Part shown: positions 1,982 to 30,300 of the stretch, piece after piece
Position numbering within the stretch: position 1 is the stretch's first letter
Layout: each line of letters opens with the position of its first letter
Source: a virus
Reading direction: 5' to 3' (one strand)
Length of the DNA: 64,000 nucleotides
Virus record (IMG/VR): IMGVR_UViG_3300025652_000043
Location: 1-64,000 of that record
Position numbers and translations under genes: made by a program
Notes under the pieces: generated by a model
Databases searched by the model: none
Told to the model about the DNA's origin: nothing
The model's input: only the letters and a program-made list of their open reading frames with translations

Positions 1982-1985
1982 GACA

Positions 1986-3193: not shown

Positions 3194-3197
3194 AATT

Positions 3198-10629: not shown

Positions 10630-12015
10630 ATGAAAAGAAAAAGAAAACAATATAGATTGGGTGGTACAATCAAAAGACATATAAAGTCTCCTGATGAGGC
10701 TATAAGAGAGAACCAAATTAGCATGGCTAAAGCTGATGAAAAGATTGCAAATAATCCTTTTATTCAAGGTATGGATATGTTTGGAGGGTTAGCTATGCAA
10801 GTAGGTATGAGTATGATGGGTGGAGCAGGAAAGGCTGAAATGATACCTGAAAATGAAATACAAGACCAATTGAATGAAGTTATAGGTGTTGATATAAATG
10901 CAATGAAAGCAGATGATTATGATACTGAATGGGTTGCTAAAGGTACAGGTGCTCAAGGTACTAAAGGTGTTCAAATCAATGCTGAAGATGGAGAGATGCT
11001 TGAGACACCTGATGGAGATGTTGCAGAAATAAAAGGTAAAAAGCATACTGAAGGTGGAGAAGACTTAACATTACAAGAAGGTACTTTAATATTTTCTGAC
11101 CAAATTAAAATTGCAGGTAAAACTCCTGCAGACAGAAAAAAAGATAGAGAGAGTAAAATGGACAAAGCTTTAAAGGCTTTAGAAAAAGACAGTACAGATG
11201 GGATAGCTAAAGAAACTTATGCAAGAATAAAAAAGATTAATGAGATTGAGCAAGAAGCTGATTTAAAAGTACAAGCCATGGCTAAAGGAATGGATGAAAT
11301 TTATAAAGCTACTTTTGGTACAGGAGGAGAAGGAATACAATCTTTTGCCAAAGGTACAGATGAAAAAGGTATTCTATGGGGAGGTATCAAAGATTTCTTT
11401 GGTGGCTTTACAGGTGGAGATGCTATGTCATTAGCAGGTAATCTTTATACTGGAATGTCTGCAGTAAAAAGTGCTAAAGCCAATGCAGCTACAAATCAAC
11501 TTAATGTTAATCACATGCAAAGTGTAGGAGATGAGTCAATAAGAACTATGGAAGATGCACAAGGAGCTTTAGCAGGACAACAAGAGATTGCAGGACAGAA
11601 GATAAAGAGAGCCAGAGACACCTCAGCAAAAGATGTTGCAGGAAGGTCTAGAAGTATAAGTACATATAATGCAAACATGTTTGGTGTAGATGAAAATGCT
11701 AATAAAGCTATGACAGATTTATATAGTAATTTTTCTAAAGTTATGATGGATAGTATGACGCAAAAAGCAGGTATGCAAGGTAAATATGATGCATTAGAAA
11801 GTCAAGGTGCAGAAAGAGCTGATATTGCAAATAGAATGGATAAAGATAATGCTCAAACTCAATTAGGTGTTGCAAAAGAAACTATGGGGAGAGCTATTCA
11901 AATGACAGGTAAAGACCTTAATCAGAACAAAGAGAGTAGATATTTAAATAACTTAGCACAACAACTATCTAAGTATGGTCTATCAATAGATAAGGATGGT
12001 AATATAAGCAGTTAA
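10630..12015 (+). CDS. Putative virion cargo protein (crAss-like)
   Basis: This 461-aa protein has a basic N-terminus (MKRKRKQYRLGGTIKRH), a Met/Gly-rich hydrophobic patch (GMDMFGGLAMQVGMSMMGG, about 47-65), a probable beta region around GVQINAEDGEMLETPDGD, and a long Ala-rich helical C-terminal half with many Asn, Gln and Ser. It follows the muzzle-like gene after a 32-bp gap. In crAss-like phages the genes directly after the muzzle encode cargo proteins stored in the tail and delivered with the DNA; that is the basis of the call. No enzymatic motif is seen. Confidence 0.5.
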   Translation: MKRKRKQYRLGGTIKRHIKSPDEAIRENQISMAKADEKIANNPFIQGMDMFGGLAMQVGMSMMGGAGKAEMIPENEIQDQLNEVIGVDINAMKADDYDTEWVAKGTGAQGTKGVQINAEDGEMLETPDGDVAEIKGKKHTEGGEDLTLQEGTLIFSDQIKIAGKTPADRKKDRESKMDKALKALEKDSTDGIAKETYARIKKINEIEQEADLKVQAMAKGMDEIYKATFGTGGEGIQSFAKGTDEKGILWGGIKDFFGGFTGGDAMSLAGNLYTGMSAVKSAKANAATNQLNVNHMQSVGDESIRTMEDAQGALAGQQEIAGQKIKRARDTSAKDVAGRSRSISTYNANMFGVDENANKAMTDLYSNFSKVMMDSMTQKAGMQGKYDALESQGAERADIANRMDKDNAQTQLGVAKETMGRAIQMTGKDLNQNKESRYLNNLAQQLSKYGLSIDKDGNISS

Positions 12016-12026
12016 TACAAAAACAA

Positions 12027-13835
12027 ATGGGAAGATTTTATAAAGCCACTCCTGGTCAATTCATAGAGGACAAGATGTTTCAAGTTCCTTTTAAAGAAAT
12101 TGCAGCAGTGATTGGCAATATTGACAAGAATATTGATGAAACTTATGATGAAGGTAGGGAGATTCAAAACAGTTTAGATTCAGAAAAATTAGACATTGAT
12201 GACCCTGCAGTTTCAGCTAGATACCAGCACTATGATAATTTAGCTGAACAGAGTGCTATTGCTATGGACAAAGACCCATTAAGTTTTAGAAAACAAATAG
12301 GCAAACTTAGAAGGACTTCAAGGGAGTTAGCTACAGAAATGAAAACAGGTGTTATAGGTAGAGCAGAAGAGCAACACACTGATTACTCTAAAATCACTGC
12401 AGATACTAAAGAGAGAAAAGACTTAAAACAAGAGACTAAAGACTTATATGATAAAGTTTTATTGGAAGACTATGGTGGATTGCAGTATAATTCAAAAACA
12501 GGAGATTATAGAAAAGTTAAAGATTATGAAAGAGATTTAATTCCTGAGATTGTTGATGAAAATGCATTTATTAATGAAGTAGCAAATGGTTTTGAATTTC
12601 ATTCTCAAGGTGGAGGAGGTTCATGGGTAAGTAAAATTAAAGGTATTGATAGTGATGTCATTAAAACTAGTACTACTAATAAAACTGTTAGGAGTGCAAC
12701 AAGAGTTAGAAACGTAATGAAATCTTCACTAGCTGCTGTTAACTATAGAGGCAGTAGAGAACAATTTTATGAAATGCAACAAGACCTTGGAGAGTTAGAA
12801 CCTACTTATAATGAAGAAGGTGTATTACAGACTCCAGAAGATTTAGCTATAAAAGATGAAACTTCTTTAATAGAAAGAGCTGTGGATAAAATTGAAGGTA
12901 AAAGAGGGCATACAAATGTATCTGTTAAAAGTGTATCAAGTGTACGAGGATCTGATGACCCAAGCAAAATATATGATATTGATAAGAAAGTAAATAATAT
13001 TGGTGATTCTAAAACACAAGCTGAAACTAAAGCAATAAATACTAAACTTAGTGGATTAATGAATCAAGGGTTTATAGAGGGTGGATATGGTTCATTACAA
13101 GATTTAATTTTAGGTGCACAAGGAGAGGGTACAACTGACCCTACTACTGGAGAAGCAAGGACTTATACAACAGTGTTTAATGATCTACAGAAGTCAGGAG
13201 AATTTACAGGTGCTGGTGGATTAAATGCGTACAACACATGGATGAATAATATACTTGCATCAGAAACAAACAGAAATTCTGCAGATGCTTTACCTTACAT
13301 AGCTGCTTATAACAGCTCTGAACAATCTCAAGATGAACAGATTTATACAAGGGATTCTAATAACAACAGAGTACTTACTCCATATAAGAATAGAGCACAA
13401 TTTATTGAAGAAAATAGTAAGGGAGATTATGTAGTAGTACCTATCTCTGCCACAGAAACTTCTAAAATACCTACTTATACTCAAGACTCAAGTGGTGCTT
13501 ATCTTGATAAAGAAGGTAATCAAATTATGGTTGGAGGTGTTCCAGCAAGAGGAGAGGTGACAGATTATATTAGAGGAGAAGCAGGTAAAACTTATAAAAC
13601 TTCAGTAGCTCATAATATAGATGGTAATTCTTTTAAAGTTAAAACCCCTGAAGAGTTTAGTTTACAAACACAAAGGTCAGTTGACAATATGGGTGGATTT
13701 TCTAGTAAACAAAATCTTGTACATAACCCACAATGGGTAAGATTGAATACAAAAACAGGTGTATATGAAACTCTCTCTGTTGATATAGTAGTTCCTGCAG
13801 ATAGATTTACAATAGCAAATAAAAAAACAGAATAA
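12027..13835 (+). CDS. Virion-associated protein of unknown function, probable cargo/ejected protein
   Basis: The 602-aa product is hydrophilic, with a helical charged N-terminal region (about 25-165, rich in Asp, Glu, Lys) and a more beta/coil-like second half rich in Thr, Ser, Asn and Gly. I recognise no domain. It lies 11 bp after the cargo-like gene and 1 bp ahead of the RNA polymerase-bearing giant gene, so it is very likely part of the virion and probably injected. The lack of membrane segments or Cys pairs fits an unfolded or refolding cargo. Confidence 0.45.
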   Translation: MGRFYKATPGQFIEDKMFQVPFKEIAAVIGNIDKNIDETYDEGREIQNSLDSEKLDIDDPAVSARYQHYDNLAEQSAIAMDKDPLSFRKQIGKLRRTSRELATEMKTGVIGRAEEQHTDYSKITADTKERKDLKQETKDLYDKVLLEDYGGLQYNSKTGDYRKVKDYERDLIPEIVDENAFINEVANGFEFHSQGGGGSWVSKIKGIDSDVIKTSTTNKTVRSATRVRNVMKSSLAAVNYRGSREQFYEMQQDLGELEPTYNEEGVLQTPEDLAIKDETSLIERAVDKIEGKRGHTNVSVKSVSSVRGSDDPSKIYDIDKKVNNIGDSKTQAETKAINTKLSGLMNQGFIEGGYGSLQDLILGAQGEGTTDPTTGEARTYTTVFNDLQKSGEFTGAGGLNAYNTWMNNILASETNRNSADALPYIAAYNSSEQSQDEQIYTRDSNNNRVLTPYKNRAQFIEENSKGDYVVVPISATETSKIPTYTQDSSGAYLDKEGNQIMVGGVPARGEVTDYIRGEAGKTYKTSVAHNIDGNSFKVKTPEEFSLQTQRSVDNMGGFSSKQNLVHNPQWVRLNTKTGVYETLSVDIVVPADRFTIANKKTE

Positions 13836-13836
13836 C

Positions 13837-16800
13837 ATGGATGATATTTTTGAAGAAGAAAACCTATTAAAACATGGTTACAAAATTTCACCTTTTGGTG
13901 CTGCTTATTCTGATTTACAAGGTAATTATCTTGAAAGTATCACTATAGATGGACAAACTAAAAGTTCACTCATAGATAAAAAAGAATATACAAGACTTTA
14001 TGATGAGCACTATAACTTACAAAATTCAGGATATAAATTTGACCCTTATAGTGGAGTTCCAGAAAGCAATCAAAAACAACAAGGTTTAGCTAAAATGTAT
14101 GCTGAAGAGTTTAGAAAAGATGCTGCAAATGCTGTTATACCTATTGAAGTAAAAGAAAGTGAAGAGTTTAAAGAAACTTTTAAAGAAGAAAGTAAATTAA
14201 AAGAGGAACAAGGTGAAAAAGTTTACCCAACTGTAGAAGCACAAGAGGAAGCAGCAGAAAAGGGAACTATGTATGAAAGTTTCACTGAGGAAGATATGTC
14301 AAAAGAAGACAAATCAGACCTCAAATCTTTAATGGCACAAAAAGAAAAATTACTAGAAGAAGACCCTGATTTTGATGCAGAATCTGCACAATCTATTGAA
14401 GATAGAAATAAAGAGGCAGAGCAATATGGTAAATATAATCCTATACAAGTATTTGCAGGTCTTCAAAATATTATTGATTCAGCTATTGCACAAGTAGTTC
14501 CTACAGGAACAGGAATGAAATCTGAAGAAAATAAATTAAAACTAGAAGAATTAAATAAAGAAATAGCAAGTAAAAAAAGAGGATTTGTAGCTAATAGTAA
14601 ACAAAGACTTAAGGGTTCAATAGCAGATATTGAACAAAGAAGAGAAGAACTTAATACTTTAGCACATCCACAAAAATCTACTAGATTAGACTATGCACAA
14701 AAAATTCTTGAAGAAACTTTATGGACATTAGAAGACCATGAAAATAATTCTTGGATGCCACAAACTGTATTTTCTATGTACAATGCTATTGACCAAGGTA
14801 CTAGAGGTATTGTTGGATTAGTTTCTGAAGTTCCTACAATATTACATTTGAAATATGATGCAACTAATGATAATGATATTGATGAAAGTCAATTTCTTGT
14901 AGCTGATGCATTAAGAATGAGACAAAAAGTTACTAATGCCAATTTAAATCAAAGTGATGCTCATAAATTTATTATAGGAATAAATGAGTCTCTTAAATTT
15001 GTTGGCTTTTCTAAAGTAGGTAGAAATGCAGGTACAACAGTAGCTAATAACTTGTTAGCTAAAGGTCTTCCAAAAGTTACAACTAAATTAGGTAAAAAAG
15101 CAGTTAAATGGGGGTCTGATCTTGCAGGATTTGGTACTCAGTTAGTTATGCATCCTAGTACTTATTATTCCTCAGCAGATAGATATGCAGGAGATATTAC
15201 TCTTGATGAAGAAGGTAATATTATTACTGATTTAAAAACAACTAGGACTCTTTTAAGAGAGTTAAATGAAAGTCTTGAATTAATTGCTGATGAGCAAAGT
15301 AAAGGTGAAAACTCTGTTTACGATAAAACACAATTAGATATAAATAAAGGTATCATAGAAGATGCTATAGAAAAAGCAAAAGCTAATGCTCCTGCAGGGT
15401 TAGTTGAAGCTTTTGCATATGGTTTAACTGAAACAGGAAAAGAATTATTTTTTGAAACTCAATTAACTAAAGGTTTAAACTTTTTAGGGTCTAAACTTAA
15501 AAAAATTCCTAGTTTAAGTAAATTAGGAAAAAATATAGATGATATTTCTGCAGTAAGTAAATCTAAAGGAGCAATGGATGCTCAAAGAAGATTTGCAGGA
15601 GTGTCTAATACTGGTACTAGAGTTATTGGGAATTTACTTGAAGAAGATTTAGAAGAAGTTGCTGTACAATTAACACCTACAATTGGAGAACTCAATTGGG
15701 AAGATTATAAAAGACAAGCTAGTGAAGTTCTTACGTTTGATTTTCATGCTAAAGTATTAGCTCAAACTTTTGTGATGAATAAGGGTTTCCAAGCTTTAGG
15801 TAAAACTAATGAATTTTTAGATGACCATTCTTGGAGAAATAATTTTACTGCAATGATAGCTGCTGGTAAAAAGGGGGTCACTAAATTTGATTATGTTGCT
15901 GAAAGAAAAGCAGCTTATGATAGAAAGGTATTTCTAAAAACATCTTTCACTAAACTTGGAGATGCTTCTAGTAGAGTAATTGCAGAAGATATCTTAATGA
16001 AAACAGGTGAAGGCACAATCACCATACAAGATTATCATAATAAAATTTCTGAACTTAATAGAGCTGGAGACCCTATAGGTGCTATGGAACTTAAGAGAGA
16101 TTTATTACGTAAACAAGCTATACATGCAGCTAATTCTGGAGCTACTAAAGAATTCTCATTAGCCTTAAAAAAACTTTCTCTAAACACAAAAGTAGATGGG
16201 CAAACAAGACAGCTTGCAAAAGATATGTTGGAAGAAGCTAATGACATTCAAAATGATGTAAGTACCTATCCAAATTCAGAAGAAATTTTAGATTATAAAT
16301 CTAAATTAAAATATTCCTCCAAAACTTTAGAAGAAGTGGAAATGGCACAACTTAAAGTGCAATTTGATGATATGTATGAGAATACTAGAAATCTTGAAGA
16401 GGAGTTAGCCAAAGAAGATTTGACTTTACAAGACTTTTCTTCAAATGAAAAAGTAGAAGATTTTGATGCAAAAGTAAATAGAGTTGTTGAAAATTTAAGT
16501 GAACATGAGATTCAATTTCTTAAATTAGAAACTGTAAAAACCACTCTTAAAAATTCTCAAAAACAAGTAAATAAATTACTTAAAGATGCCACTTCTCCTG
16601 AAACTCAAGCTATTATACATGAGAGAGGTAAATATTTTAAAACTATTGATGAGGTTAATAGAAGATATTTTAATGGAAAAATGACTGCAAGTGAGTTTAA
16701 AAAACTTGTAGCTCCTACATTAGAAAAAAGAGGAGTAAGCGGAATTTTAAAAGGTGGAAAATTAGTTGAGATAAATAATAATATTTATAAGGCTAAAAAG

Positions 16801-19800
16801 AAAGGTGAAATACAGGCTCAAGCTATAAAAAGTCAAAGAACTAAACTTAGAAAACAAGCTGAACAAGAGGCTAAAGACCTTGCACAACCAGTAGAAGAGA
16901 AAATTGAAATAGTAAATGATGTAATTGAAGAACAAAGGGAAAATTTAAAAAAAGCACAGGAAGAGAATGATGTAGAGGGTATTAAAAAAGCAACAGACTT
17001 GTTAGAATATTGGGCTATAGAAGTAGCTAAATTAGAGAAAGAGGGAAGTACACCTGCTGAAGTTGAAACTAAGAAAGCTAAAATAGAGGCTGAAAGACAA
17101 GCTGAGTTAAAAAGAATGACTTTTAATGAACTTTTTGAACTTTTTAAAGGGCATCAAGTGGGACTTATAGGTAATAAAAAAGAATTAGAGGGTGATACTT
17201 TTAGGATAATAGACACAGTTAAAGAAGGAAAAGAAGTTGTAATAGAGAGACAAAAACCTGATGGCACTATTAGTTCTTTTGGAATACCAGTTGGAAAAGA
17301 TTTTAAGAAATTTGAAGAAAAATATAAAGATGTTGAATTATCTATAGAAGATATAAATAAAAAATATGATGCTGAAGTAGCTACTTTAGAATCTCAACCA
17401 ACACAACAAACTAGTGAGGTTAAAGTTACACCTGCTGAATCTATTGTACAACCAGTAGAACAAAAAACAGATGAACAAAAGAAGTATGAAGCTTCTTTAA
17501 ATAAAACTGCTGAAGTTATAGATACTGTAATATCTCAAGAAGCAGACAGTAAAATTCAAGTTAATGATAAGGATGAGATAGATTTTAATGACATACAAGA
17601 TTTTGATTTACCTATTGAACAGGAACATGAAGAAACTGTTGAAGCTCTTAAATTATTTGCACAAGAGTATGAAGCTGTTTACAAAGTAAAACCAACATTT
17701 AAAGATTGGTGGGAAGCTACTATTGAAGCAGAAGATGGTAATATTTATGTATTTGATAAGAACTTACTTGAGTGGACTGCTGCACAGTGGAATTTTGCTA
17801 AACTAGGAAATAGTAATTGGCAAAAAGTATGGAAAGACAATTATACAAATAATTCTAAAATAAGAGTTAGATTTAAAAGTATAAGAGAGGCTTATAGAAG
17901 TAATGAAGAACTTGCAAAAGTTAATACTGAAATAGTAAAAACTCCTATAGTGACTTCTAATACTCCAAAGTCCCCTGCAACTGGAAATCCTATGGCTCTT
18001 GTTTCAGGAGATGTCACTCCAAATGTTGGCAAGACAATGACAACAAATGTTAAAGGAAATTTTAGTGCTATTAAATATCAAAATGAAAAAGAAGAATCTG
18101 GAGAAATCACTGTATACACTAAAGAGGATAAAAATAAAGAGATTCCTCAATTAAATGAAAATACACCTTTAGAAATTAAAGAACTTTTACACCCTGATAA
18201 TCTTAATCCAGGGGATAAAGTTAACATTAGAGTAATTGATGAAAGTGAATGGTCTACTATTCTTGTGAATATATATAATGATAAAGGTATAATAGACAAG
18301 AGAATCTCTTTTCAAGAGTGGTATGACACTAATTCTAAAGAATGGTTGAAGGATAATAAAGGTAGTACACTTGAAGATTTTCAAAATAGTGAACTTTTTA
18401 TTTCTAGGATACCTATGTTTTATACTAATCCTGCTACCAACAATGATGTTATGTTTGTTGCTGATACAGCTTGGTATAATCAGTACAGTATGGGAGACCC
18501 TGATACTGATAATAAAGTAATAGATTTAAATAATCCATCTAGCACAGTACAAGAATCTGTAAAATTAGGTAAAAAGAATGCTTTACAGTTAAGACAAGAT
18601 GTTATAATAGGGGAAGTTACAGAAGGTATTATAGAAACCAAAACAAGTGGTTTTGCTCAAAAAATTCCTGGTAATTTACCAGTTAAAACTTTATGGGAAG
18701 TAGCTAGAGATAATCAAATAGTATTATTTGATGGTTCAGATTTTGTAGATTTAGAAGGTAATACTATAAATACCAATACTCATGTTATACTTAACATGGA
18801 TAAAGTTTTAGAAAATTTCCAAAATGCAGGATTTAATAATGGAACTAAATCTACTATGCAATCTATGTATTTATCTCCTGATCACAAGACTACAGAAAAT
18901 GGAGAAGTAATACAACACTACAAAGCTTTTATGGTTCTTAGAACAGATGAAGGTGGTAGGGAAAAACAAGCTATGCGGGAAGATGTAGAAACTGCAAAGC
19001 TTATATTAAGTGCACATGAAGCTTTAACTACTAAAGAGACAGTAAATGGTATAACTTATGAAAAAGCCTTAGAGCTTAGAGATATGTTATTAGACAACAG
19101 TGATGTTGCATTAAACATAGCTGAAGCTGAAGATGCATATGGAATGGTTAGAGGATTAGTTGCCTTAGAAACTACTAATGGATTAATTGATTATCCAAGT
19201 TCAGGAGGAAATAAAAAATATAAAAGTTTTTTAACTAAACTTCTTGAAGACAAGTTAAAGGTTATTCAAAACACTTCTAAAGATGTCCCAACTGCCAGAG
19301 GAATTTCAATTAAAAATAATGATGGTACTTTTAAAGTTGAAGTTAAACCTTATGTAGACTTCTTAAAAACTAGACTTTCTACTAATATTATGAGTTATAA
19401 TATGGGTACAGAAGAAAATTGGGCTTCTACCCATAATATTCAACCTATTATTAAAATTAATCCTGTTAGGTCTGAAGAGGTAAAATCTATACAAGAGAAT
19501 CAACAAGTTGTAAATGAAACTCCTACAGAAACTAAAGTAGAGGACATTAAAGAGGATGTTGCAAAAGCAAGAGAACTAGAACAGCTTAAGGAATTAGACA
19601 AGGAAAAAGACTCTTTCTTAGCAAGTATCAATGCTTTAAATGAGACTACCCCAAGTACAGATGAACTTTCAGATGAAAGTTTACCTGAAATGGATGATGT
19701 TACTTTAATAAGAGACTCTCTTAAAACTATAGGGGATCTTGCTGCTAAAGACCAAAGAGATATTATACAGTTTCTTAGAGATTCTCTTTCATTAGTTGTA

Positions 19801-22800
19801 GGAGTGTCTAAAAAAGATTATAAAAGAGCTGCAAATAAGTTTTTTAAAGATACTTATGTTCCTACACTTGAAAAATGTAAAGAATATATTGAAAAGTATG
19901 AAGGTTTTCATAAAACTTTTCCTGATGATAAAGGTGTACAAGCTACTTTATCTACCTTAAGGTCTCAAGAAATAAATTTTGAAAATATTCTAAAGAATGA
20001 AGAGGCATTTTTTGATAAAGCTTATGAAGAAGGATTAAAAAAAGGTAATATTAAAGATTTAGAGGACACTGATGACACTATTAAAAAGGAAGACTTAGAC
20101 CATAATGAAGAGGAGTCTTTAACTAGAAATTTCTATAGAAGTTCTAATGAAGATATACATAAAGAAAAAATAGGAGCTAAATTAAAAAGAGTTTTTACAG
20201 GAATACCTACAGGTGAAAAAGGTTTTATGGGTACACCTTTATATGAAGATTTTGATATGATTTACAATTTCATAGCTACTTATATCTCTAGTCCATTGCC
20301 TACTGATCCATCTTTTAATGAAATGGTTAAAAGACTTAAACTTATTGAAGCAAAAGTGCCATGGATGAAAGAAGTTATAAAAAGGTTAGAAGAGTCTCCA
20401 CAAGATACTAAAGCTAGTTTTGTTAGTAATATGTATAAATACTCTGCTAATGCAAAATTTGTAATGTTCAATAAAAACAAAGAAAAAGGTATTGAGTCTT
20501 CTTTATGGTTTAGTAATAGAAACAATCATATAAGAAAAATCAAAGAAAGTTGGAATGAAAATTTTAAAAGAAGTAAAATAGTTAAAGGCAATGTACTTGA
20601 TAAGAAAATATTAAGGGGTTTAGCAGAGCAATATGAATCTTGGAATCCACAAAATAAACATTCTGAATCTGATGAGGTATTAAAAGATTGGTTAGCTGCA
20701 TTTGGATTAGAGTTTTCAGATGGTACATGGGAAGACATAAAGCTTGGAAAACTAGTGTTAACTCATAAATCAGGTAGTAAGCCAATTAGTTTTGAGAACC
20801 TATTTAAACCTACATCAAAAGGTAGAAATTATCAATTATTTGATTCTTTATATAAATATGCTAGAGATAATTCTAAAAAAGAAGGAGATTTAGATTTTAC
20901 TGAAAATGCAAAACTCTATCCTTTAGAAGACTTAAGCACAACAATAAAAGGATTACTAGATTTAGAAGTGCTTTATAATACTTCTACAAAAAGTATTACA
21001 AGAAGAGATGGTGGAAAAACTGTTAGTGAACTGGTATATCCTAGTTTTTTCTTAGATACTATGAGAAATCTAATTAGTTCTGCAAATGATACTGAAGGTG
21101 GACATCAATATATTAAGGATTTGATGAATATACCTTTTAGTGAGAATTCAATGATACTTGAATTATTGCTTAAAAATAAAAACTTTAAAGATATCTTTTC
21201 TTATGGTGAAGTTGGATTAATGTCACTTAGAAATCAATATGAAAAACCTAATGACTATGCTAAAATAGAAGACTTATCTCCAATTGACTATGTATTTCAT
21301 CAGATGGCTATGTTTCAAGACATGAAAAATGAAGAAATTTCAGCTACTAGAAAAGGTTTTAAAATGAGAGTGGGAACAGTATCTACTCCTACCAGTTCAG
21401 ATAAAGGTAGAATGATGTTACTTAAAACTGCTGTATATGATTTTTTCAAAACTGATTTAGCTTTTGAGGGAGATGATTTTAAGTTTACTAAAAGGCTTAA
21501 AGAAGTCTTATATGCAGATTTAATTGAACCAGAATTAAATAGAAAAGTTCAACATACTACTCAAGATGTTAAGAAATATAATATAGGTGCAATGAGGTTT
21601 AATAATATGCCTTCACTTAATTATATGGTTAATTCTGAAGGACTTACTGTAGAGAAATTTTTTGAAAACATTGAAGTTCGTACTGAAAAAGGAGAAAATT
21701 TAAGTTCTGAAGAAATTAAAGCAGAATTTAAACTTCAATTTTTTACAGAAGCTACCAATATTCTTGAACAATCTATAAACTCAGAGGTAAATAGTGAATT
21801 AAAAGACATACAAGAATTTGAAGCCAGCAATGACATTAATTCAAGTAAAGACGGAATTAATAGTACAACTTATTTAAATAGAAAAGACCCATTAAATGAG
21901 AGTGACTCTGCTATGCAGAAGAAAAGAAGAGCAATGTTGGATTATGTAATAAATTCTAACATAAGTAATATGAATATTATGCAAACTATTTCAGGTGACC
22001 CTGCAGTTTACTATAATTCTAAGGTTACACCTTCAATAAAAGAGACACATGATTTATCTTCTAAAGAATTAGGAGTGAATATGGGTAAGAGACTTGCACT
22101 TATGATTGCTCCTGGTGTTGCTTTATCTAATTCACATAATGAACAGTATATTCAAATAATGTTAAAAGATAATGATATAGTAGCTCCAAATATAGAGTTA
22201 ATTGCAGGCTACCATTATGGAAAAAGTATACTTAAAAAAACTTATGAGAAAGAAACTTATAAGGTAATTATGGATAAGATTGCTACTGGAGAATATAAAA
22301 ATGATAGCCCTCAATATGAAGAAATAAAGAAAAAATTACCTAAAATAGCACCTTTTTTAAGTATTGAAAATACTGATGCACAGGAATATACAACTCTTGC
22401 AGAGCATTTAAGAGTACTTAAAGGTTTGGGTAGAATAAATAAAGAACAAGAAAAAAATATTTTAGATAACAAGGATAATTTATCTGAAGCTGATATGTCT
22501 TTAATTCTACAACCTATGAAACCTGTTTATACAGGGGAGATTATAGAAAGAGATGAAAAAGGTAAAGTAATGTTTAAGAGAATGGTTTATATTAAATCAT
22601 CTTCATTTCCTTTAATACCTGAATTAATTAATGGTACTCCTCTTGAAGGATTGATGAATACCATGAATGAGATTGAGAAAAAACAAACAAAATTTAATGG
22701 TGGTAAATATGTTGGAGTTAGAGCTTCCTATGGTAGTGCAAATAAATTAGGCTCTACTGAAAGAGAAATAAATCCTACATCTGAAACTGATTTGGCTACA

Positions 22801-25800
22801 CTACTTCAATCTAGAGAAGATGGTAAAGCACCTAAAAGAAGTGCTTTATTATTAAATAGATCAGGTTTTAAAATTCAACAAGATGTACCTAATAAATCAG
22901 CTAAAAATGGTAGTGACCAAGTATCTATGGGTACACAAATTTTTAAACTATTATTTGGTGATGGTCTTGCACAACATAGTACTAAAGAGTTTGATGGACC
23001 ACAATTATTAGAAGACTTTCATAGAGCTTTTTCTAAGATGATTAATATTAATAAAGATGCTCTTGTTGAAGAATTAGGTTTAGATGAAAATTATCAACCT
23101 AAAGATAAAGAGCAATATATGGAAAAGGTAAAAGCTTTACTTCTTAGAGAAGCTAAAGAAAGAAACTTTTCTGAAAATGATATGAAATCTTTTGACATTG
23201 ACTCTAGAAAAAACTCTAAAACTGGAGAGACAATTTACTATTTCAAACAACCTTTATGGTTGTCAGGCAATAGTAATAAGATTGAGGCAATGTTTAATGC
23301 TATTATAAACAATAAAATTTTTAAGCAAAAATTGCCAGGAAATTCATTTGTAGTAGCATCTAATAATGGTATCACTTTACAAACTCAAGAAAATTTTGAT
23401 AAAAAGAATAATAGTATAGTATACTTAGGAGATTATAAAGGTGGAGAATTACAAGGTAATGAAGTACTTGCACCATCTAGAATTAAACTTAATGGTACAC
23501 TTATAGACCTTTTTGAGGTAAGTGAAAGTGGAAACTATAAATATGTTATAAAAGATAAAGATGGTAGTTTTACTATAAATGAGAAAGCTATAGACCCTGC
23601 TTTATTTGAAAATTTTGTATTTAGAACTCCAACATCTTCACATGGTTCAGGTTCAGGTATTAAAATAGTAGGATTTATTCCTGCAGTATTAGGAGATTTA
23701 ATGATTACTCCTAGTAATTTTGTAACTCAAATGGGTCAGGATTTTGATGTAGATAAGCTTACTGCTTATCAGTATCATCATGTCTATAATGAGAAAACTA
23801 AAAGAATAGAAATCTTTAATAAAGGACATAAAGAAGCAAGATTAAGAAGTTTTAGAAATAAGTTATCTGAAATTGATAATAAAATAAAAAAAGAAGATGA
23901 GCTTTCTAAAGAAGAAAAAGATTCTGTAAATAATTTTCTTAAAGCTTTACTTGCAGATTTTAAAAGTTTTGATAATGCTGAAGAAGCTATAACACAAGTA
24001 GATGAGGTAGTTGATAAAATATTAGAAGATGAAGAAATTACTTTAGCAAAGAAAAGGGATTCTCTCTTAGAAAAATTAAGAACTATGCCTGCTAAACTTG
24101 ATATGAAGTTAGCACAAAATATGTTTATAGGTATACATAATAAAATTTACAATAGTACAGATCCTTTTATACAAGCTAAAATTAATAAAGTGCTTTCAAT
24201 GGATACTGCAACTGAACAAGCAGAAAACATTGATAATAAAGTGAGTAGCTCTAAAATAGTTAACTTAACTTCTCCTAAATATCAAAGAGAAAAATTAATT
24301 TCAGGCTCTACTGGTAATTCTGCTATTGGAGTTTATGCTAAAGGAATGACTCTTAATTCTCTTATACAACAACAAAAAGAAGGAGATAAACTTGAAATTT
24401 TAAATGCAGAAGGAGAGAAAAAAGTAAGATTTATAGGAGACTTAAAAACAGAAGGTGAATTTGGTTTACTTCAAAATTTAACTATTTCTCCTAAAAAAGA
24501 AAATGGAGAAAGAATTGAAGCTACAGAAGTTGAAAAATATTTTACCAGACCTTTAGTTGAATCTTTAGATGAAAGGGTGAACACTGCTACTGATAATGAA
24601 AAAGCTCAAATCTTAGGTAGAGTAGGTATTACTAATATCAAAAATGTTGCAGTAGATAATTTCTTAGCTTTACAAGGTATTGATGTTGAAGTAAGAGAAT
24701 TAGATATAGATAAGGGTGAATATGAGGAAGCTAACCCTTTTCATAAAATAGGTTATTTGCCAGGCACTACTGAGCCTGTATATTATAGTGAACATTCTAT
24801 TCCTTACTTATTACACTCTCAACCTATTATAAAAGAGTATTTTAAAAGGTTAAAGAATGGTAGAGCACAAGCAGGAAACTTAACTAAAGATTTAGAAAAA
24901 ACTATACTTGCTGAATTAATGGGAGACTACAAGATTCAACCTAAATTCAGTGAAAATTTTACAGGTAAAAAACTTTTTAATAGTCTGTCTAATAATATAG
25001 ATTCTGAATTTCAAAAAGAAGTTTTATTTCTATATGCAGATTTAATGAAAGATGCAGATAAGGTTAAAGAAATTCAAAGTTCTATTGACTTATCTAACTT
25101 GGGTAAATCTATGTGGGAAGCTAAAGATAAAATAGAAAAATTTAAAGATTTAGCAACTAATAAGGACTTCAAAAACTTAAGTAATCTTATAGGTGATTTT
25201 AATTATAAGGGTGAAGGGGTTTATTTAGGAGATATAAATATAGGAGATGTTAAGAATACTAAAATAGAGGGTCTTTATTTTAAACCCACTACTAATCAAG
25301 GTATAATGGTTAGTACAGCAGTGTCTCTTGCCAGAAACTTATTTTTAAATAACTTTTTTCCTTATTATGACTCTGCTATTGAGATAGCAATGCAAGATAT
25401 TATTACTGTTTCTGGTAAAAAAGATACTCCTCAATTTAGAGAAGAAGTTTTTAATAATATAAAGCAATTTATAACCTCTTCAGATAGTAATGGAATATTC
25501 TTAGACACTACTAAAAATGTTAGAGAAGACTTATTATTTGAAAAAGATGGTCCATCTTTATCTACTTATGTAGCAGACACATTAGGAGTTACTGATAAAG
25601 AATATTCAAAAGGTATCAATTTACTTGGCAAAAATATTCTTATTACTTCTTTTAGTTATGAGAAAGGAGTAAATGGTAAGCCTAGTTTAATAAAGTATGA
25701 TAATACTGCTGCAGGTAATACTAATGAAGAAGATTTTCATGTAGCTATGAAAGAATTGCTAGTAAGTGATTCTCCTTTACCACCTAGAAATGGTAGACCT

Positions 25801-27336
25801 TATACTACTAGAATGTTAGCTCAAGATTTAGTGTCTTATTCTTATGTATCAGGTGGTATAATTAGTGAAGCTATACAATTTCATAAATTTATTCCTTTAG
25901 AGTATTTTGACCAAATTACTGTAAAACAAGTATATAAAGGTGGCAGAGTCATAGAAATGCCTGTAACTAAAAAAATGCAAGGTTATGATACTAGGATAAT
26001 GAATTGGAGTGATATGGGCATTTTAGGTAATTTCACAACACAATTTATCCAAAATAATCCTACTTTTTCAAGAGCATTATCTAAAGAAGATATAAAATCT
26101 TTAAACTATTTAGACAAGACTAAAAGAAGTTTTGAATATTTTGTTAAAGAGGGAGAAATTTTACCAGAATTTGTAAGGTTATCTGGTAACAGTAGAGCTA
26201 AAAACAAACAAGGAAAAACAAGTCTTTATAAATTAGTTTTTGGAAATACTTATGAGCAAATAGATGTATTAGGTGAATTTGGAATGACTGAATATAGTGC
26301 AAAAGAGTCTGATCTAAAAACATCAATAGGAGTGGCTACCCCTAGAAAAGTATTTACTAAAAAGAATGGAGGATTTACTTATACTCAACCTAAGACTGCA
26401 CCTTTTGAAGCAAATACAGGAGATAGTGTACTTACATTACTTAAAAAAGTAAAAGCAGATAATGCATCTTCTAATCCTAATTTATCTGAAATAGCCTCTA
26501 CTTTAATAGACTTATTTGGAGATAAGGCAATGGAACTTCAAATAAAAGTTGAGGAGGATTTAGGACCTGCAGGAGTTTATAGCCCATCTAATAATACTAT
26601 AACACTCAAAAAAGGTTCTAAAAACTTGGGAGAAACTTTTGTACATGAATTTATACATGGAGTAACTTCAAAATACCTTAATCCTTATATAAATCACACT
26701 ACAGGGCAATTAAAAACTGATATTGAAATTCCTAAAGATATTCAAGAGATAAATAGTGTTTTTCTTGAGACTAGAAATTATATTATAGATACCTATAAAG
26801 AGGAATATGATAATTTTATGTTCAAATGGGAGACTTATAAAGATGCAAAAAAGAATAAAGAAGCTTCTGGTGTTATTTTTACTCCGAGAGAGAGAAATTT
26901 ATTCTATTCTACTGTAAATTTAAAAGAGTATCTTGCAATATCATTAGGAAATAATCAACTTTTATTAGAGGAAACTTCAAAAGTACCTTATAAATCTACT
27001 AAGATTACATTGTCAGAGAAATTGATGAAAGTCTTAAATAGAATATTTGAAAGTATGGCAGGAAAAGAGAATAGTTTAGCTGAACAAATTATAGGTAAAA
27101 ATCTTGATTTTATTCAAAAAAGAGCTAATACTTTAGAAAAATCTTCTGAGAAACTTCCATCTGAATTAGATATACAAAGGGATTTAGGTTCTTCTCCAAA
27201 TTTAGATAACTATTATAATGGAAATGCTCCTCCTCTTGACCAATATGGAGACTTATTTGGTAATGACCAAGATATTTCTTTTGAAAAATTAGTAGAAACA
27301 GTAATGTTACCTCTAGGAACAAAACCTTGTAAATAA
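13837..27336 (+). CDS. Giant virion protein with crAss-type RNA polymerase and zinc metallopeptidase motifs
   Basis: The 4,499-aa product is one of the largest phage proteins I would expect to meet. The sequence TQMGQDFDVDKLTAY has the DFDxD signature (D3302, D3304, D3306) of YonO/crAss-family RNA polymerases, whose Asp triad binds the catalytic Mg2+ in a double-psi beta-barrel. In crAss-like phages this polymerase is packaged, injected and transcribes early genes. Near the C-terminus HEFIH (4270-4274) followed by NLKEYLAISL (E4364) fits a gluzincin-type zinc metallopeptidase of the kind carried by large phage polyvalent proteins. The first ~1,200 residues are helical with long coiled-coil Lys/Glu stretches. 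The gene ends in TAATG with the next gene. Exact domain borders cannot be drawn by eye. Confidence 0.8.
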   Translation: MDDIFEEENLLKHGYKISPFGAAYSDLQGNYLESITIDGQTKSSLIDKKEYTRLYDEHYNLQNSGYKFDPYSGVPESNQKQQGLAKMYAEEFRKDAANAVIPIEVKESEEFKETFKEESKLKEEQGEKVYPTVEAQEEAAEKGTMYESFTEEDMSKEDKSDLKSLMAQKEKLLEEDPDFDAESAQSIEDRNKEAEQYGKYNPIQVFAGLQNIIDSAIAQVVPTGTGMKSEENKLKLEELNKEIASKKRGFVANSKQRLKGSIADIEQRREELNTLAHPQKSTRLDYAQKILEETLWTLEDHENNSWMPQTVFSMYNAIDQGTRGIVGLVSEVPTILHLKYDATNDNDIDESQFLVADALRMRQKVTNANLNQSDAHKFIIGINESLKFVGFSKVGRNAGTTVANNLLAKGLPKVTTKLGKKAVKWGSDLAGFGTQLVMHPSTYYSSADRYAGDITLDEEGNIITDLKTTRTLLRELNESLELIADEQSKGENSVYDKTQLDINKGIIEDAIEKAKANAPAGLVEAFAYGLTETGKELFFETQLTKGLNFLGSKLKKIPSLSKLGKNIDDISAVSKSKGAMDAQRRFAGVSNTGTRVIGNLLEEDLEEVAVQLTPTIGELNWEDYKRQASEVLTFDFHAKVLAQTFVMNKGFQALGKTNEFLDDHSWRNNFTAMIAAGKKGVTKFDYVAERKAAYDRKVFLKTSFTKLGDASSRVIAEDILMKTGEGTITIQDYHNKISELNRAGDPIGAMELKRDLLRKQAIHAANSGATKEFSLALKKLSLNTKVDGQTRQLAKDMLEEANDIQNDVSTYPNSEEILDYKSKLKYSSKTLEEVEMAQLKVQFDDMYENTRNLEEELAKEDLTLQDFSSNEKVEDFDAKVNRVVENLSEHEIQFLKLETVKTTLKNSQKQVNKLLKDATSPETQAIIHERGKYFKTIDEVNRRYFNGKMTASEFKKLVAPTLEKRGVSGILKGGKLVEINNNIYKAKKKGEIQAQAIKSQRTKLRKQAEQEAKDLAQPVEEKIEIVNDVIEEQRENLKKAQEENDVEGIKKATDLLEYWAIEVAKLEKEGSTPAEVETKKAKIEAERQAELKRMTFNELFELFKGHQVGLIGNKKELEGDTFRIIDTVKEGKEVVIERQKPDGTISSFGIPVGKDFKKFEEKYKDVELSIEDINKKYDAEVATLESQPTQQTSEVKVTPAESIVQPVEQKTDEQKKYEASLNKTAEVIDTVISQEADSKIQVNDKDEIDFNDIQDFDLPIEQEHEETVEALKLFAQEYEAVYKVKPTFKDWWEATIEAEDGNIYVFDKNLLEWTAAQWNFAKLGNSNWQKVWKDNYTNNSKIRVRFKSIREAYRSNEELAKVNTEIVKTPIVTSNTPKSPATGNPMALVSGDVTPNVGKTMTTNVKGNFSAIKYQNEKEESGEITVYTKEDKNKEIPQLNENTPLEIKELLHPDNLNPGDKVNIRVIDESEWSTILVNIYNDKGIIDKRISFQEWYDTNSKEWLKDNKGSTLEDFQNSELFISRIPMFYTNPATNNDVMFVADTAWYNQYSMGDPDTDNKVIDLNNPSSTVQESVKLGKKNALQLRQDVIIGEVTEGIIETKTSGFAQKIPGNLPVKTLWEVARDNQIVLFDGSDFVDLEGNTINTNTHVILNMDKVLENFQNAGFNNGTKSTMQSMYLSPDHKTTENGEVIQHYKAFMVLRTDEGGREKQAMREDVETAKLILSAHEALTTKETVNGITYEKALELRDMLLDNSDVALNIAEAEDAYGMVRGLVALETTNGLIDYPSSGGNKKYKSFLTKLLEDKLKVIQNTSKDVPTARGISIKNNDGTFKVEVKPYVDFLKTRLSTNIMSYNMGTEENWASTHNIQPIIKINPVRSEEVKSIQENQQVVNETPTETKVEDIKEDVAKARELEQLKELDKEKDSFLASINALNETTPSTDELSDESLPEMDDVTLIRDSLKTIGDLAAKDQRDIIQFLRDSLSLVVGVSKKDYKRAANKFFKDTYVPTLEKCKEYIEKYEGFHKTFPDDKGVQATLSTLRSQEINFENILKNEEAFFDKAYEEGLKKGNIKDLEDTDDTIKKEDLDHNEEESLTRNFYRSSNEDIHKEKIGAKLKRVFTGIPTGEKGFMGTPLYEDFDMIYNFIATYISSPLPTDPSFNEMVKRLKLIEAKVPWMKEVIKRLEESPQDTKASFVSNMYKYSANAKFVMFNKNKEKGIESSLWFSNRNNHIRKIKESWNENFKRSKIVKGNVLDKKILRGLAEQYESWNPQNKHSESDEVLKDWLAAFGLEFSDGTWEDIKLGKLVLTHKSGSKPISFENLFKPTSKGRNYQLFDSLYKYARDNSKKEGDLDFTENAKLYPLEDLSTTIKGLLDLEVLYNTSTKSITRRDGGKTVSELVYPSFFLDTMRNLISSANDTEGGHQYIKDLMNIPFSENSMILELLLKNKNFKDIFSYGEVGLMSLRNQYEKPNDYAKIEDLSPIDYVFHQMAMFQDMKNEEISATRKGFKMRVGTVSTPTSSDKGRMMLLKTAVYDFFKTDLAFEGDDFKFTKRLKEVLYADLIEPELNRKVQHTTQDVKKYNIGAMRFNNMPSLNYMVNSEGLTVEKFFENIEVRTEKGENLSSEEIKAEFKLQFFTEATNILEQSINSEVNSELKDIQEFEASNDINSSKDGINSTTYLNRKDPLNESDSAMQKKRRAMLDYVINSNISNMNIMQTISGDPAVYYNSKVTPSIKETHDLSSKELGVNMGKRLALMIAPGVALSNSHNEQYIQIMLKDNDIVAPNIELIAGYHYGKSILKKTYEKETYKVIMDKIATGEYKNDSPQYEEIKKKLPKIAPFLSIENTDAQEYTTLAEHLRVLKGLGRINKEQEKNILDNKDNLSEADMSLILQPMKPVYTGEIIERDEKGKVMFKRMVYIKSSSFPLIPELINGTPLEGLMNTMNEIEKKQTKFNGGKYVGVRASYGSANKLGSTEREINPTSETDLATLLQSREDGKAPKRSALLLNRSGFKIQQDVPNKSAKNGSDQVSMGTQIFKLLFGDGLAQHSTKEFDGPQLLEDFHRAFSKMININKDALVEELGLDENYQPKDKEQYMEKVKALLLREAKERNFSENDMKSFDIDSRKNSKTGETIYYFKQPLWLSGNSNKIEAMFNAIINNKIFKQKLPGNSFVVASNNGITLQTQENFDKKNNSIVYLGDYKGGELQGNEVLAPSRIKLNGTLIDLFEVSESGNYKYVIKDKDGSFTINEKAIDPALFENFVFRTPTSSHGSGSGIKIVGFIPAVLGDLMITPSNFVTQMGQDFDVDKLTAYQYHHVYNEKTKRIEIFNKGHKEARLRSFRNKLSEIDNKIKKEDELSKEEKDSVNNFLKALLADFKSFDNAEEAITQVDEVVDKILEDEEITLAKKRDSLLEKLRTMPAKLDMKLAQNMFIGIHNKIYNSTDPFIQAKINKVLSMDTATEQAENIDNKVSSSKIVNLTSPKYQREKLISGSTGNSAIGVYAKGMTLNSLIQQQKEGDKLEILNAEGEKKVRFIGDLKTEGEFGLLQNLTISPKKENGERIEATEVEKYFTRPLVESLDERVNTATDNEKAQILGRVGITNIKNVAVDNFLALQGIDVEVRELDIDKGEYEEANPFHKIGYLPGTTEPVYYSEHSIPYLLHSQPIIKEYFKRLKNGRAQAGNLTKDLEKTILAELMGDYKIQPKFSENFTGKKLFNSLSNNIDSEFQKEVLFLYADLMKDADKVKEIQSSIDLSNLGKSMWEAKDKIEKFKDLATNKDFKNLSNLIGDFNYKGEGVYLGDINIGDVKNTKIEGLYFKPTTNQGIMVSTAVSLARNLFLNNFFPYYDSAIEIAMQDIITVSGKKDTPQFREEVFNNIKQFITSSDSNGIFLDTTKNVREDLLFEKDGPSLSTYVADTLGVTDKEYSKGINLLGKNILITSFSYEKGVNGKPSLIKYDNTAAGNTNEEDFHVAMKELLVSDSPLPPRNGRPYTTRMLAQDLVSYSYVSGGIISEAIQFHKFIPLEYFDQITVKQVYKGGRVIEMPVTKKMQGYDTRIMNWSDMGILGNFTTQFIQNNPTFSRALSKEDIKSLNYLDKTKRSFEYFVKEGEILPEFVRLSGNSRAKNKQGKTSLYKLVFGNTYEQIDVLGEFGMTEYSAKESDLKTSIGVATPRKVFTKKNGGFTYTQPKTAPFEANTGDSVLTLLKKVKADNASSNPNLSEIASTLIDLFGDKAMELQIKVEEDLGPAGVYSPSNNTITLKKGSKNLGETFVHEFIHGVTSKYLNPYINHTTGQLKTDIEIPKDIQEINSVFLETRNYIIDTYKEEYDNFMFKWETYKDAKKNKEASGVIFTPRERNLFYSTVNLKEYLAISLGNNQLLLEETSKVPYKSTKITLSEKLMKVLNRIFESMAGKENSLAEQIIGKNLDFIQKRANTLEKSSEKLPSELDIQRDLGSSPNLDNYYNGNAPPLDQYGDLFGNDQDISFEKLVETVMLPLGTKPCK

Positions 27337-30300
27337 TGGATTGTAAAATAAAATTTAGAAAAGAAGCAGAAAAAGAAGCCTTTGACATTGCAAAATCTAA
27401 TGGAAAAATAGGTAGTGCAAAAACAAAAGGTCTTCTTGTATTTTATCCTGTAAATAAGGAAGGAAAAGTAACTAAAGGTAAAAGTGCAGGGGAAATTGCT
27501 AAAAGAAAAGTAAAAGAAATTAATGCACATTTTCAATCTGCAAGATTTGGAGCTAGTGTAACACTTAATAATGGATTTAATGATGGTGTTGGAATAGATA
27601 TTAAAATTTCTGAAGCTTATTTAGACTATTTAGTAGCTCAAAACGAAAAGGCTATTGATATGACTCTTTCAAGAGAAATACAAATTGAAGATGCAAAAAG
27701 GGCTGGTATTGAATATGATAATAGATATTTATTTGATGAAAATTTACCTGGCAATCAACCTCCAAGTAATACCAATTCTCCTCTTACTCAAAAAGGTATG
27801 GAATTTGGAGAATACTATAATAGAAGATTAAAAGCTAAAAACTTTATTGAACAAAGAGCTAAAGTTCTTAAAGAGATGAAGGGAAGTCAAAGTCTTCAAA
27901 AGAAAAGAGAAATAAAATTTTTTAATGACTTAAAAGATAAAGAGGAAAATTTATTAAAAAGAATATCAGGAGATATAGCTTCACTTAATACTGGGTCTTA
28001 TGTCTTAGATAATTTTTTTACTTATTTTAATAGTGATATTAGTACTATTAATGATATGCTTAATCAAAATCCTAGCCTTGAAAATTTGATGGCTGCTGAA
28101 GAGTATATGAAAACTTTAAGATGGGTGTTTAGTGCAGACATATTAGATAGTCCTTTCTTTGCTTATGGTATTGATAAACTAGAAGGAAGTACATTACAAA
28201 AATTTAATACGGCATTAAATAGTTTTAAAAAACTTGATAATAAATATGTTCAGAAGACCAATAGTATGGCTATGAAAGTATTTAAAGAAGCAGATGAAAA
28301 TGCAACAGATTTATCTGAAAAAGAAGAGGTACAAAAATTAATAGACCTTGTACATAACAGTGAGATAAGTATATTAGAAGAGTATTTTTTACCTTTAGAT
28401 GGGGATGGCTCTAAAGAAGACACTATTAGAGCTTTAGTTAGAAAAATATTTGATGACTCTATTTCAAAACAAGAAATAAGCTATCTACAAGATAGGATAC
28501 TTAATCATAAAGAAAGTTTAGAAAGAGAACTCCCAGTTAAAAAAAGATCAGGTTTTGGTTTATTATCTACTACATTTGACTATTCAATTTTAAAAAAAAC
28601 AGCTAAAGATGGTGCTTCAAGACTAATAAGTAAATATTCTTCTGTTTGGAATGGAGTATTAAAGAATTATAACTATAAAATAAATAGTATAAATTTAAAA
28701 CTCTCTAAACCAAATAAGACTAGAACTGATTATATAACTATAGACAAAATTAGAAAATCTCTTTTTAGAGAATTAAAGAATAATGGAGCTGCATTTATAG
28801 CTATAGAATCTTTACCTGAAATGCAAGATTCTGACATGTTGGAGTCTTTTGAAAGAATAGAAACTTTATTTGCAATACCTAAAGATAACCTTAGAGGGAG
28901 ATTAGAAGACACTAAAAAAGCTGAAGAATATAAAGAGAGAGTTATAAAACAACTCCAAGGTAAACATGGTACAAGATTAGTTGCAGAAAGAGAGTATAAT
29001 AATCTTATAGCAGAGCAAAAAGATAAGATGCTTGATCTTGAGATTGATTTAGAAAAGGAACTCAATACTGCTCTTGAAAAGGAAGCTAAAAATGTATATT
29101 CTGAACTATCAATAGAGAAAAAACAAGAACTAGCAAATTCTTATCTAAGCAAATCACCATTCTTTCTTTCAAAAAACTTAAAAGAAAAAGGCAATTCTAC
29201 TATAACTATTCCTCAATATGACCAATCAACTTTAGAGGTATCACATTCCTTAGAATATACTACTTTTATACCCTCAAAAGACAATCATTTTGATAAAGAT
29301 TTCTCTGATAATATTGAATCTAATCCTGTAATTTTAGAAGCCTGGGAAAATTTTAGTTCTGCACTAAAATATATCAATTCTAATAGAAAGTATATGGACA
29401 ATAATAAGAATAGAGATACTCTTGATTATATTGATTCATTAATTGATACTGCAAAAGAACATAACTTAGAGATAATGGCAAATGCAAGTGCCATAAAAAG
29501 GGCACTTAGACCTACTAAAAAATTCTTATATGATGCTTCAAGTGCTATTACTGAAGCTTTAGGATTAAGAGCACATTTAACTGGTACAACTCAATCTTTA
29601 AGAACTGTTTTAACTTCTGTAGATGAGAGAATAAGAGAAATTGCACAAGGTTCATATTCATTATTAACTGCAAATGAGATTAAACTCATGAGCAAATATA
29701 AAAATGGAATTTTATCAGACAAGGCATTTGAAATACTTCAAGAACAATTAGGAGTGACTTCAAATAGAATAGACCCTAATACTACTTTAAAAAGACATAT
29801 TCAAGATATTATAAGAGAAAGAGTCTATAAAAGTCAAGACAGTAATATGACTAAAGACCTTATAGCTCAACTTGGTATAGTACAAGAGTTTAAAGCTAAA
29901 AAAGAAGTTGAGACTAAACTTAAATTTTTAAGGGGATTAATTCAAAAAATTAAAGTAGGGTCTAGTATAACTGAAAAATCAAATGTTGCTGAACTTGTTG
30001 AAAATTTTATAAATACCCATTTATATGGACATTCTAGAAGACCTACAGACAAACTAAAATTATATAAAAGCTATACTGGAGAAGACAAAATGTATATTGA
30101 AGCCACTAGAAAGGCTATAGAAGACTTAGAGGAAGTTTTAGAAATGACTCAAAATGAGTCAGCTAGAAGAAAAATTGAAGCTGATATTAAATCTCTTCAA
30201 AAAAATATTGACAATAAGGGACATTTAGTTACAGGACAAAGTGTAATAGAAGCTATGTTTGTTAAAACTGCAATTTATGCAGGTTTAGGGTATAATTTTA

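Follow-up and report, generated by a model that had tools for sequence, protein, structure and literature searches.

The window analyzed, bases 1-64,000 of a virus record that is 83,041 bases long (IMGVR_UViG_3300025652_000043), encodes a 4,499-residue protein in which a crAss-type RNA polymerase is joined to a predicted gluzincin-type metallopeptidase at the C-terminal end. The polymerase-zincin fusion is not peculiar to the window virus; in a tree of polymerase sequences it marks a clade that includes the Flavobacterium phage Fpv3. We propose, with moderate confidence, that the protein is a packaged polymerase bearing a predicted protease that would act in trans after entry, cutting of its own chain not being its main role.

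Packaged RNA polymerases let phages begin infection without the host enzyme. We know of no settled role for the giant parts that are fused to them.

The 4,499-residue protein and its gene neighborhood

The open reading frame was free of internal stops. The initial annotation had placed DFDVD, HEFIH and E4364 on this one chain, and all three were borne out; HEFIH was the sole HExxH in the protein, and residue 4364 was the Glu within NLKEYLA. The predicted features, in window coordinates, were the following.

4166-10597, plus strand: crAss muzzle (tail tip) protein (Pfam crAss_MUZ, E 6.3e-44; phrog_15100)
10630-12015, plus strand: 461-residue protein, probably a cargo or virion gene to judge from gene order (phrog_15413)
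12027-13835, plus strand: preceding 602-residue protein, related to Fpv3 gp31 (phrog_14670)
13837-27336, plus strand: coding sequence of the 4,499-residue virion protein with N-terminal part, RNA polymerase and zincin (phrog_16227, E 1.1e-288)
13837-19416, plus strand: N-terminal part, residues ~1-1860 (putative boundary), in the positional place of phi14:2 g067
19417-26325, plus strand: crAss-type RNA polymerase, residues ~1861-4163 (putative limits), from the phi14:2 gp66 BLASTP match, the 6VR4 profile match and the model
22516-23361, plus strand: first (beta-like) double-psi barrel region, residues ~2894-3175, with invariant K2895 and K2920 (putative limits from predicted strands)
23608-23814, plus strand: second (beta-prime-like) double-psi barrel, residues ~3258-3326 (putative limits from predicted strands)
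23740-23754, plus strand: catalytic DFDVD, residues 3302-3306
26329-26418, plus strand: residues 4165-4194, a variable hinge (mean top-residue fraction 0.22-0.23) that joins polymerase to zincin and was modeled at low pLDDT
26419-27126, plus strand: gluzincin-type metallopeptidase domain, residues ~4195-4430, from alignment, profile and model
26644-26658, plus strand: HEFIH, predicted zinc-binding and catalytic motif, residues 4270-4274
26926-26928, plus strand: E4364, predicted third zinc ligand of the gluzincin, in helix 423-431 of the model
27336-32306, plus strand: following 1,656-residue protein, Fpv3 gp33 homolog, corresponding in position to the third polymerase-associated protein

The family matched by the whole protein, phrog_16227, is one of virion structural proteins, and Fpv3 gp33, the homolog of the following gene product, matched crAss001 gp49 (E 5e-5). 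The muzzle protein is a Crassvirales-like trait; the terminase (TerL), portal and major head PHROGs found in the rest of the record carry labels that are not crAss-specific. Elsewhere in the window, on the minus strand at 34901-36791, a GroEL gene (phrog_5725, 4.6e-150) adjoins a GroES-like gene (phrog_3188, 5e-7), and this chaperonin pair may serve the folding of giant virion proteins. At or near the C-terminal end of the 4,499-residue chain, C4498 (27328-27330) was kept in all six sequences of one alignment, while the tail preceding it was variable.

The RNA polymerase

The assignment to the crAss-type polymerases made in the initial annotation was confirmed by profile and model, and the polymerase is, on this evidence, a true relative of the phi14:2 crAss-like RNA polymerase, of the two-barrel type. 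BLASTP aligned phi14:2 gp66 with the 4,499-residue protein (E 2.7e-19) with the DxDxD sites in register, tblastn with residues 2501-3499 recovered 118 phage records at E <= 0.01, and a profile of 34 polymerase sequences (alignment A7) found PDB 6VR4 with an E value of 6.8e-58. The AlphaFold2 model of residues 2662-3682 (mean pLDDT 78, pTM 0.79) likewise had 6VR4 as its top fold match (Foldseek E 2.7e-25), with a VIA Z of 20.1 and an rmsd of 4.5 over 711 residues for 6VR4 812-1677. The next fold matches were plant RDR2 (Z 9.7) and QDE-1 (residues 647-1141, Z 9.6, rmsd 5.7, 429 residues). The second double-psi barrel was looked for and found, in that the 6VR4 and QDE-1 matches, with the model superposed as a whole, covered both barrel regions. 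K2895 and K2920, both in the first barrel region, were invariant among the aligned relatives, and QDE-1 presumably has two active-site lysines with a similar spacing. The polymerase matched the two-barrel type and not the T7-like single-subunit type.

The limits of the polymerase are approximate. Offsets of the matches to cr111_1 gp33, L057, L061 and L065 put its start near residues 1864-1929, and the polymerase may reach to ~4163, because a second model covering window residues 3950-4173 gave a weak match to gp66/6VR4 1904-2126 (Z 4.8, rmsd 7.3). A Pfam scan of the whole protein returned no zincin and no polymerase family, and a PDB search with the single sequence returned no match to either, because single-sequence searches are too weak here.

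The zincin domain

The C-terminal zincin appears to be real, as judged from alignment and model together, and its predicted metal-site residues are under strong constraint. Alignment A6 consisted of the last 560 residues of the window protein and 32 relatives (33 sequences, mean column identity 26%); the relatives had been selected for having HExxH, the downstream Glu not being a criterion. The only invariant columns were Y4001, H4270, E4271, H4274 and E4364. In the zincin model (block means of 74-96 pLDDT over model residues 251-470), HExxH lay in helix 325-345 and the Glu in a second helix, 423-431, the arrangement expected of a gluzincin, the type named in the initial annotation. The top fold matches were zincins, at modest scores (lethal factor, VIA Z 8.3, rmsd 4.6 over 151 residues; Pro-Pro endopeptidase, Z 6.5), and the best Foldseek E value was only 0.055. 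Pfam SprT-like matched 19 of the 33 members at E <= 0.5 (best 8.8e-5), the window's own copy having no match.

A motif-free profile scan covered 49 distinct IMG/VR contigs (56 loci minus seven same-contig repeats). The zincin domain, with its motif not required, was found on a DxDxD-bearing ORF in 44 of these, and the other five (L011, L019, L020, L048 and L051) end or are interrupted before it. The H-E-H-E set was intact in 40 of the 44 domain-bearing contigs, and Lys replaced the first His in the remaining four (L032 and L040-L042); since several contigs are near-identical, these contig counts should not be read as numbers of independent events. With both barrel regions covered and HEFIH conserved, the reading of the chain as polymerase plus gluzincin survived the two sequence-based tests set out in the initial annotation, one for the second barrel and one for conservation of the motif. 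Relatives were found by alignment-based scans; the last 299 residues alone gave no tblastn match in the phage collection at E 0.1, and a single-sequence scan of IMG/VR confirmed no relative.

Long proteins hold such motifs by chance, and several other HExxH occur in the crassvirus ORFs examined, so HExxH and DxDxD might be coincidental in a protein of this length. That explanation is refuted by the conservation of both sites across the group, together with the alignment and the fold, and its probability is negligible.

The contigs with Lys for the first His represent a sub-lineage (L032:7088-15673 and L040:1775-17215) that retains the zincin domain and the third-ligand Glu; the L032 chain extends beyond the domain. 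A non-catalytic role must be possible in L032 and L040-L042, because the domain is kept there without the first His. In L040 the ORF after the polymerase has an HExxH, which was considered as a displaced zincin. That reading was rejected, because this HExxH is not a match and because the L040 polymerase chain has itself retained the domain, in which Lys replaces the first His. Separately, two contigs have two zincins: besides that on the polymerase chain, the ORF that follows the polymerase bears one toward its N-terminal end (L036:16222-22020 and L045:16039-21762).

The clade that carries the fusion

The tree of the polymerase core had 47 rows and 531 columns. All 35 rows with a C-terminal zincin, two degenerate ones included, formed one clade (100/99), from which 12 other crassviruses were separate. 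The window grouped with five IMG/VR contigs (100/99), the nearest row having 49% identity; L021, which stood outside the tree, was 51% identical to the window over part of the core. L053 and L054, in which the N-terminal part is a separate ORF, branched first in the zincin-fusion clade, and split and fused forms were intermingled, with the split L065 beside the fused L059. Because split forms are mixed within the clade and the zincin fusion runs throughout it, the polymerase-zincin junction looks steadier than the junction with the N-terminal part, as far as these sequences indicate. The clade is in part a product of sampling, since the IMG/VR rows had been collected for their similarity to the group.

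Phi14:2 was a long branch of unsure place. Near-repeats (L010, L014, L041, L042 and L052) and incomplete sequences (L011, L048 and L021) were left out, L019, L020, L050, L051, L057, L061 and L063 were missed by the strict motif filter and stood outside the tree, and cr116_1 was not among its rows.

The annotated homologs belong to Flavobacterium phages. Fpv3, Fpv20 and their relatives (Fipvunavirus) have a protein of 4,287-4,419 residues (Fpv3 gp32, 4,287; Fpv20 gp33, 4,419) with the same DxDxD, HExxH and Glu at matching places. Identity was about 30% over residues 1399-4444 (Fpv3) or 1399-4456 (Fpv20), while the N-terminal region of the group matched the window weakly (22-23%) and in part of its length. 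The annotation of these homologs is that of a virion structural protein only. Fpv3 is listed under Caudoviricetes and Fipvunavirus, without an order, and a contig grouping with Fpv3 was placed outside the five crAss groups, as reported in PMC7886860.

Zincins and polymerases in other crassviruses

Phi14:2 gp66 (6VR4) shares the polymerase core and fold with the window protein and is a virion protein by MS/MS annotation, an annotation carried by three proteins of the phi14:2 block. It differs in extent, having 2,180 residues: another gene, g067, occupies the position of the N-terminal part, and a related zincin lies not on the polymerase but on the following gene, g065, close to its N-terminal end.

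A related zincin was detected in the polymerase block of seven of the 13 other crassviruses examined, six times on a non-polymerase chain. In phi14:2 (g065, 97% in profile comparison) and cr55_1 it was on the gene that follows the polymerase. In crAss002 (gp32, 95% in profile comparison), cr110_1, cr8_1 and LMMB (weak) the gene preceding the polymerase had it close to its end. In cr116_1 one ORF held the zincin and, after it, the first part of the polymerase core. The zincin profile gave no detection in crAss001, cr111_1, cr50_1, Dulem virus 41, Rudgehvirus or ctcc615, where the scan of ctcc615 excluded the preceding gene, which is outside the stretch examined; in Rudgehvirus the preceding gene, which the profile missed, carries a ZnMc_tr note and an HExxH in the corresponding position. 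Two of the proteins, cr110_1 QOR59077 and LMMB QIN93287, are annotated as 'RNAP associated protein fused to zincin protease', and their zincins appear related to that of the window by profile (4.6e-8 and 0.0055, respectively). In the p-crAssphage group the zincin is on the protein before the polymerase, whereas in the window it is on the polymerase chain.

A single module shared by phi14:2, crAss002 and crAss001 was considered and rejected, the HExxH of crAss001 gp47 not being supported by profile comparison. Another kind of HExxH, YHEAFH, is present in crAss001 gp47, cr55_1, cr50_1 and Dulem virus 41 (L008:17588-17602, also L071, L073 and L074). It precedes the polymerase core, lying ahead of the polymerase block or inside it, and shares a chain with DxDxD in cr55_1 and cr50_1. 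Two near-identical contigs (L011:3-4739 and L014:3-4739) have HEAIH, probably by chance, in the ORF at the place of the muzzle gene.

The initial annotation also described the virion polymerase of several crAss-like phages as spread over two or three genes. That description holds for crAss001 and phi14:2, but of the 12 other crassvirus DxDxD ORFs examined eight are as long as 4.1-4.8 thousand residues. Giant crAss polymerase genes of up to ~6,000 residues are reported (PMC10136315), and three polymerase-block proteins are reported to be present in crAss001 virions (PMC10172136, PMC6235969).

Coliphage N4 and other virion proteins with zincins

The best non-self PHROG of the zincin was phrog_2206, virion RNA polymerase (profile positions 2079-2249 for the window), with an E value of 2.3e-4 for the window and 1e-8 for the best member, and with six of the 33 members at E <= 0.01. 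Comparison of the zincin profile with N4 gp50 gave 80% by hhalign, and hmmsearch in a small ORF set gave 1.5e-5 around HELVH near residue ~2240 of gp50. Coliphage N4 gp50 thus appears, as in the window, to have a packaged polymerase followed by a related zincin, although the N4 polymerase is described as T7-like, of another fold than the window's (PMC5512222, PMC12633501). A further likeness is reported for gp96 of Thermus phage P23-45, which has a two-barrel virion polymerase and a metallopeptidase on one chain of 5,002 residues (PMC10770324). However, gp96 is described as the tape measure of a long-tailed phage, with the polymerase in its N-terminal portion (PMC10770324), and the likeness of its metallopeptidase to that of the window is drawn from presence on the chain.

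Polyvalent proteins with a zincin-like MPTase are portrayed as large, multidomain and delivered with the DNA, as is proposed for the window protein, and the N4-type MPTase has been linked to lethal-factor-type zincins (PMC5512222). Zincins of the lethal-factor type also head the list of folds matched by the window's zincin model. Of the polyvalent-protein domain set, the window has the zincin; its N-terminal part had no Pfam family at E 0.01, and LPD14 was found in two of 17 N-terminal parts.

The zincin profile also matched two further proteins. One, an internal virion protein (9sfn_G, E 1e-5), has both HExxH and the Glu; the other, a tetrameric ejection protein (8vb2_A, 6e-4), was matched only along the Glu helix. 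These similarities would suit a structural or packaging module, a zincin fold retained mainly for docking or ejection of the cargo, its catalysis secondary or lost. The zincin-containing region of the N4 protein is reported to be required for encapsidation (PMC5512222), and the retention of the domain in L032 and L040-L042 with the first His changed points the same way. A purely structural role, however, fails to explain why the four predicted metal-site and catalytic residues are among only five invariant columns of 560, and we consider this explanation quite improbable.

The N-terminal part, the hinge and possible cutting of the chain

The N-terminal part of the window protein corresponds to phi14:2 g067 by position, there being no direct sequence match between the two, and its only PDB matches were two ribosomal proteins (E 0.62 and 0.79). 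It was a separate ORF in six relatives (L032, L053, L054, L057, L061 and L065). Four of these separate ORFs matched phi14:2 g067, crAss002 gp32 or Fpv3, and those of L053 and L054 matched none of the six sequences tested. The equivalence of the separate ORFs and the N-terminal part rests on position, because none of the six matched the window's own N-terminal part. In all six contigs the zincin stayed on the polymerase chain, and the metal site was intact in five.

In L021:11701-17614, ~5.9 kb interrupts the polymerase gene, between a 3,262-residue ORF and an ORF with DxDxD and HEFVH; the same 3,262-residue ORF occurs in L019 and L020. The interruption is likely an intron or other insert.

The initial annotation had suggested a polyprotein cut by its own protease. 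In such a scheme cleavage by the zincin, either inside the head or once the chain has been ejected, would free the polymerase from the N-terminal part, or the zincin itself at the hinge. Zincins are described as the most frequent polyvalent-protein domain, with a proposed role in the processing of multidomain chains (PMC5512222). The zincin domain of the window protein is directly preceded by a flexible hinge, and passage of so large a chain through a narrow tail would favor its refolding piece by piece. However, the zincin is kept where the N-terminal part is already separate, and it is on other chains in other crassviruses. The hinge, residues 4165-4194, the only stretch examined in this respect, had no conserved sequence and was among the least conserved, and a fused relative of 5,146 residues lacks the first His. 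Moreover, the N4 virion polymerase is reported to be packaged unprocessed, while DdrB of phage P1 is reported to be cleaved before encapsidation, which was read as autoproteolysis (PMC5512222), so cut and uncut outcomes both have precedent. In crAss001, gel bands of 150, 270 and >300 kDa were analyzed and gp47, gp49 and gp50 identified (PMC6235969), for which 262.5, 154.5 and 276.9 kDa, respectively, are predicted (PMC10172136), which also speaks against processing; the three proteins are identified for the bands as a set, and crAss001 has no zincin of this profile. On balance, the sequence evidence on self-cleavage as the main role leans negative, and we regard it as unlikely.

A proposed protease delivered with the polymerase

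In the reading that we prefer, action in trans, the 4,499-residue protein, to judge from relatives, would travel in the phage head, leave through the tail together with the DNA and transcribe the first phage genes. The zincin, being tied to the polymerase, would arrive together with it and act on host proteins or co-ejected cargo, not mainly on its own chain, and the single chain would result from gene fusion, by which the parts are packaged together and in equal copy number. A virion location is supported by the annotation of the homologous family as virion structural and by the MS/MS annotation of the phi14:2 block proteins.

Several observations favor action in trans, 1) the zincin stays on the polymerase chain in the split-N contigs, in five of the six with the full metal site, 2) it is on neighboring genes in phi14:2, cr55_1, crAss002, cr110_1, cr8_1 and LMMB, and 3) the N4 polymerase, of another fold, has a related zincin and is reported to be packaged unprocessed (PMC5512222). 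Other observations count against it, 1) the module is not universal, as far as profile detection among the other crassviruses indicates, 2) the sharing of one block is equally expected of a cis-processing enzyme, 3) L032 and L040-L042 keep the domain without the first His and 4) the reported cleavage of P1 DdrB is, by analogy, a precedent for action in cis (PMC5512222).

That a zincin occurs in the crAss transcription block was already known, because database records name it. No paper on a zincin or metallopeptidase in that block was among the matches listed, and 'protease' was absent as a term from PMC7886860, PMC10136315, PMC11054128 and PMC12386605. The combination of polymerase and metallopeptidase on one virion chain is likewise known, from N4 (PMC5512222, PMC12633501) and, as reported, P23-45 (PMC10770324). 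In the variant described here, that of the Fpv3 group, the polymerase chain itself has the predicted zincin toward its C-terminus. What goes beyond the records examined is the domain reading of the Fpv3-group protein, its near-invariant predicted metal site and the kinship of its zincin with that of N4, all as read from sequence comparison.

More tentatively, and as a proposal that we consider doubtful, one kind of zincin may have been joined to packaged polymerases of two unrelated folds, the T7-like polymerase of N4 and the two-barrel polymerase of the crAss type, and in many crassviruses may change chain but stay in the polymerase block, as might be expected of a delivery protease needed on arrival. 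If this is true, such a protease could, for example, remove a host inhibitor or open a way at the membrane. The conserved protease-like site of the polymerase chain offers a definite hypothesis, open to test, about one of the giant parts that packaged polymerases carry. The site is common to cultured Flavobacterium phages and appears related to the N4 module, which raises the question of why a similar protease domain is found on two unrelated virion polymerases.
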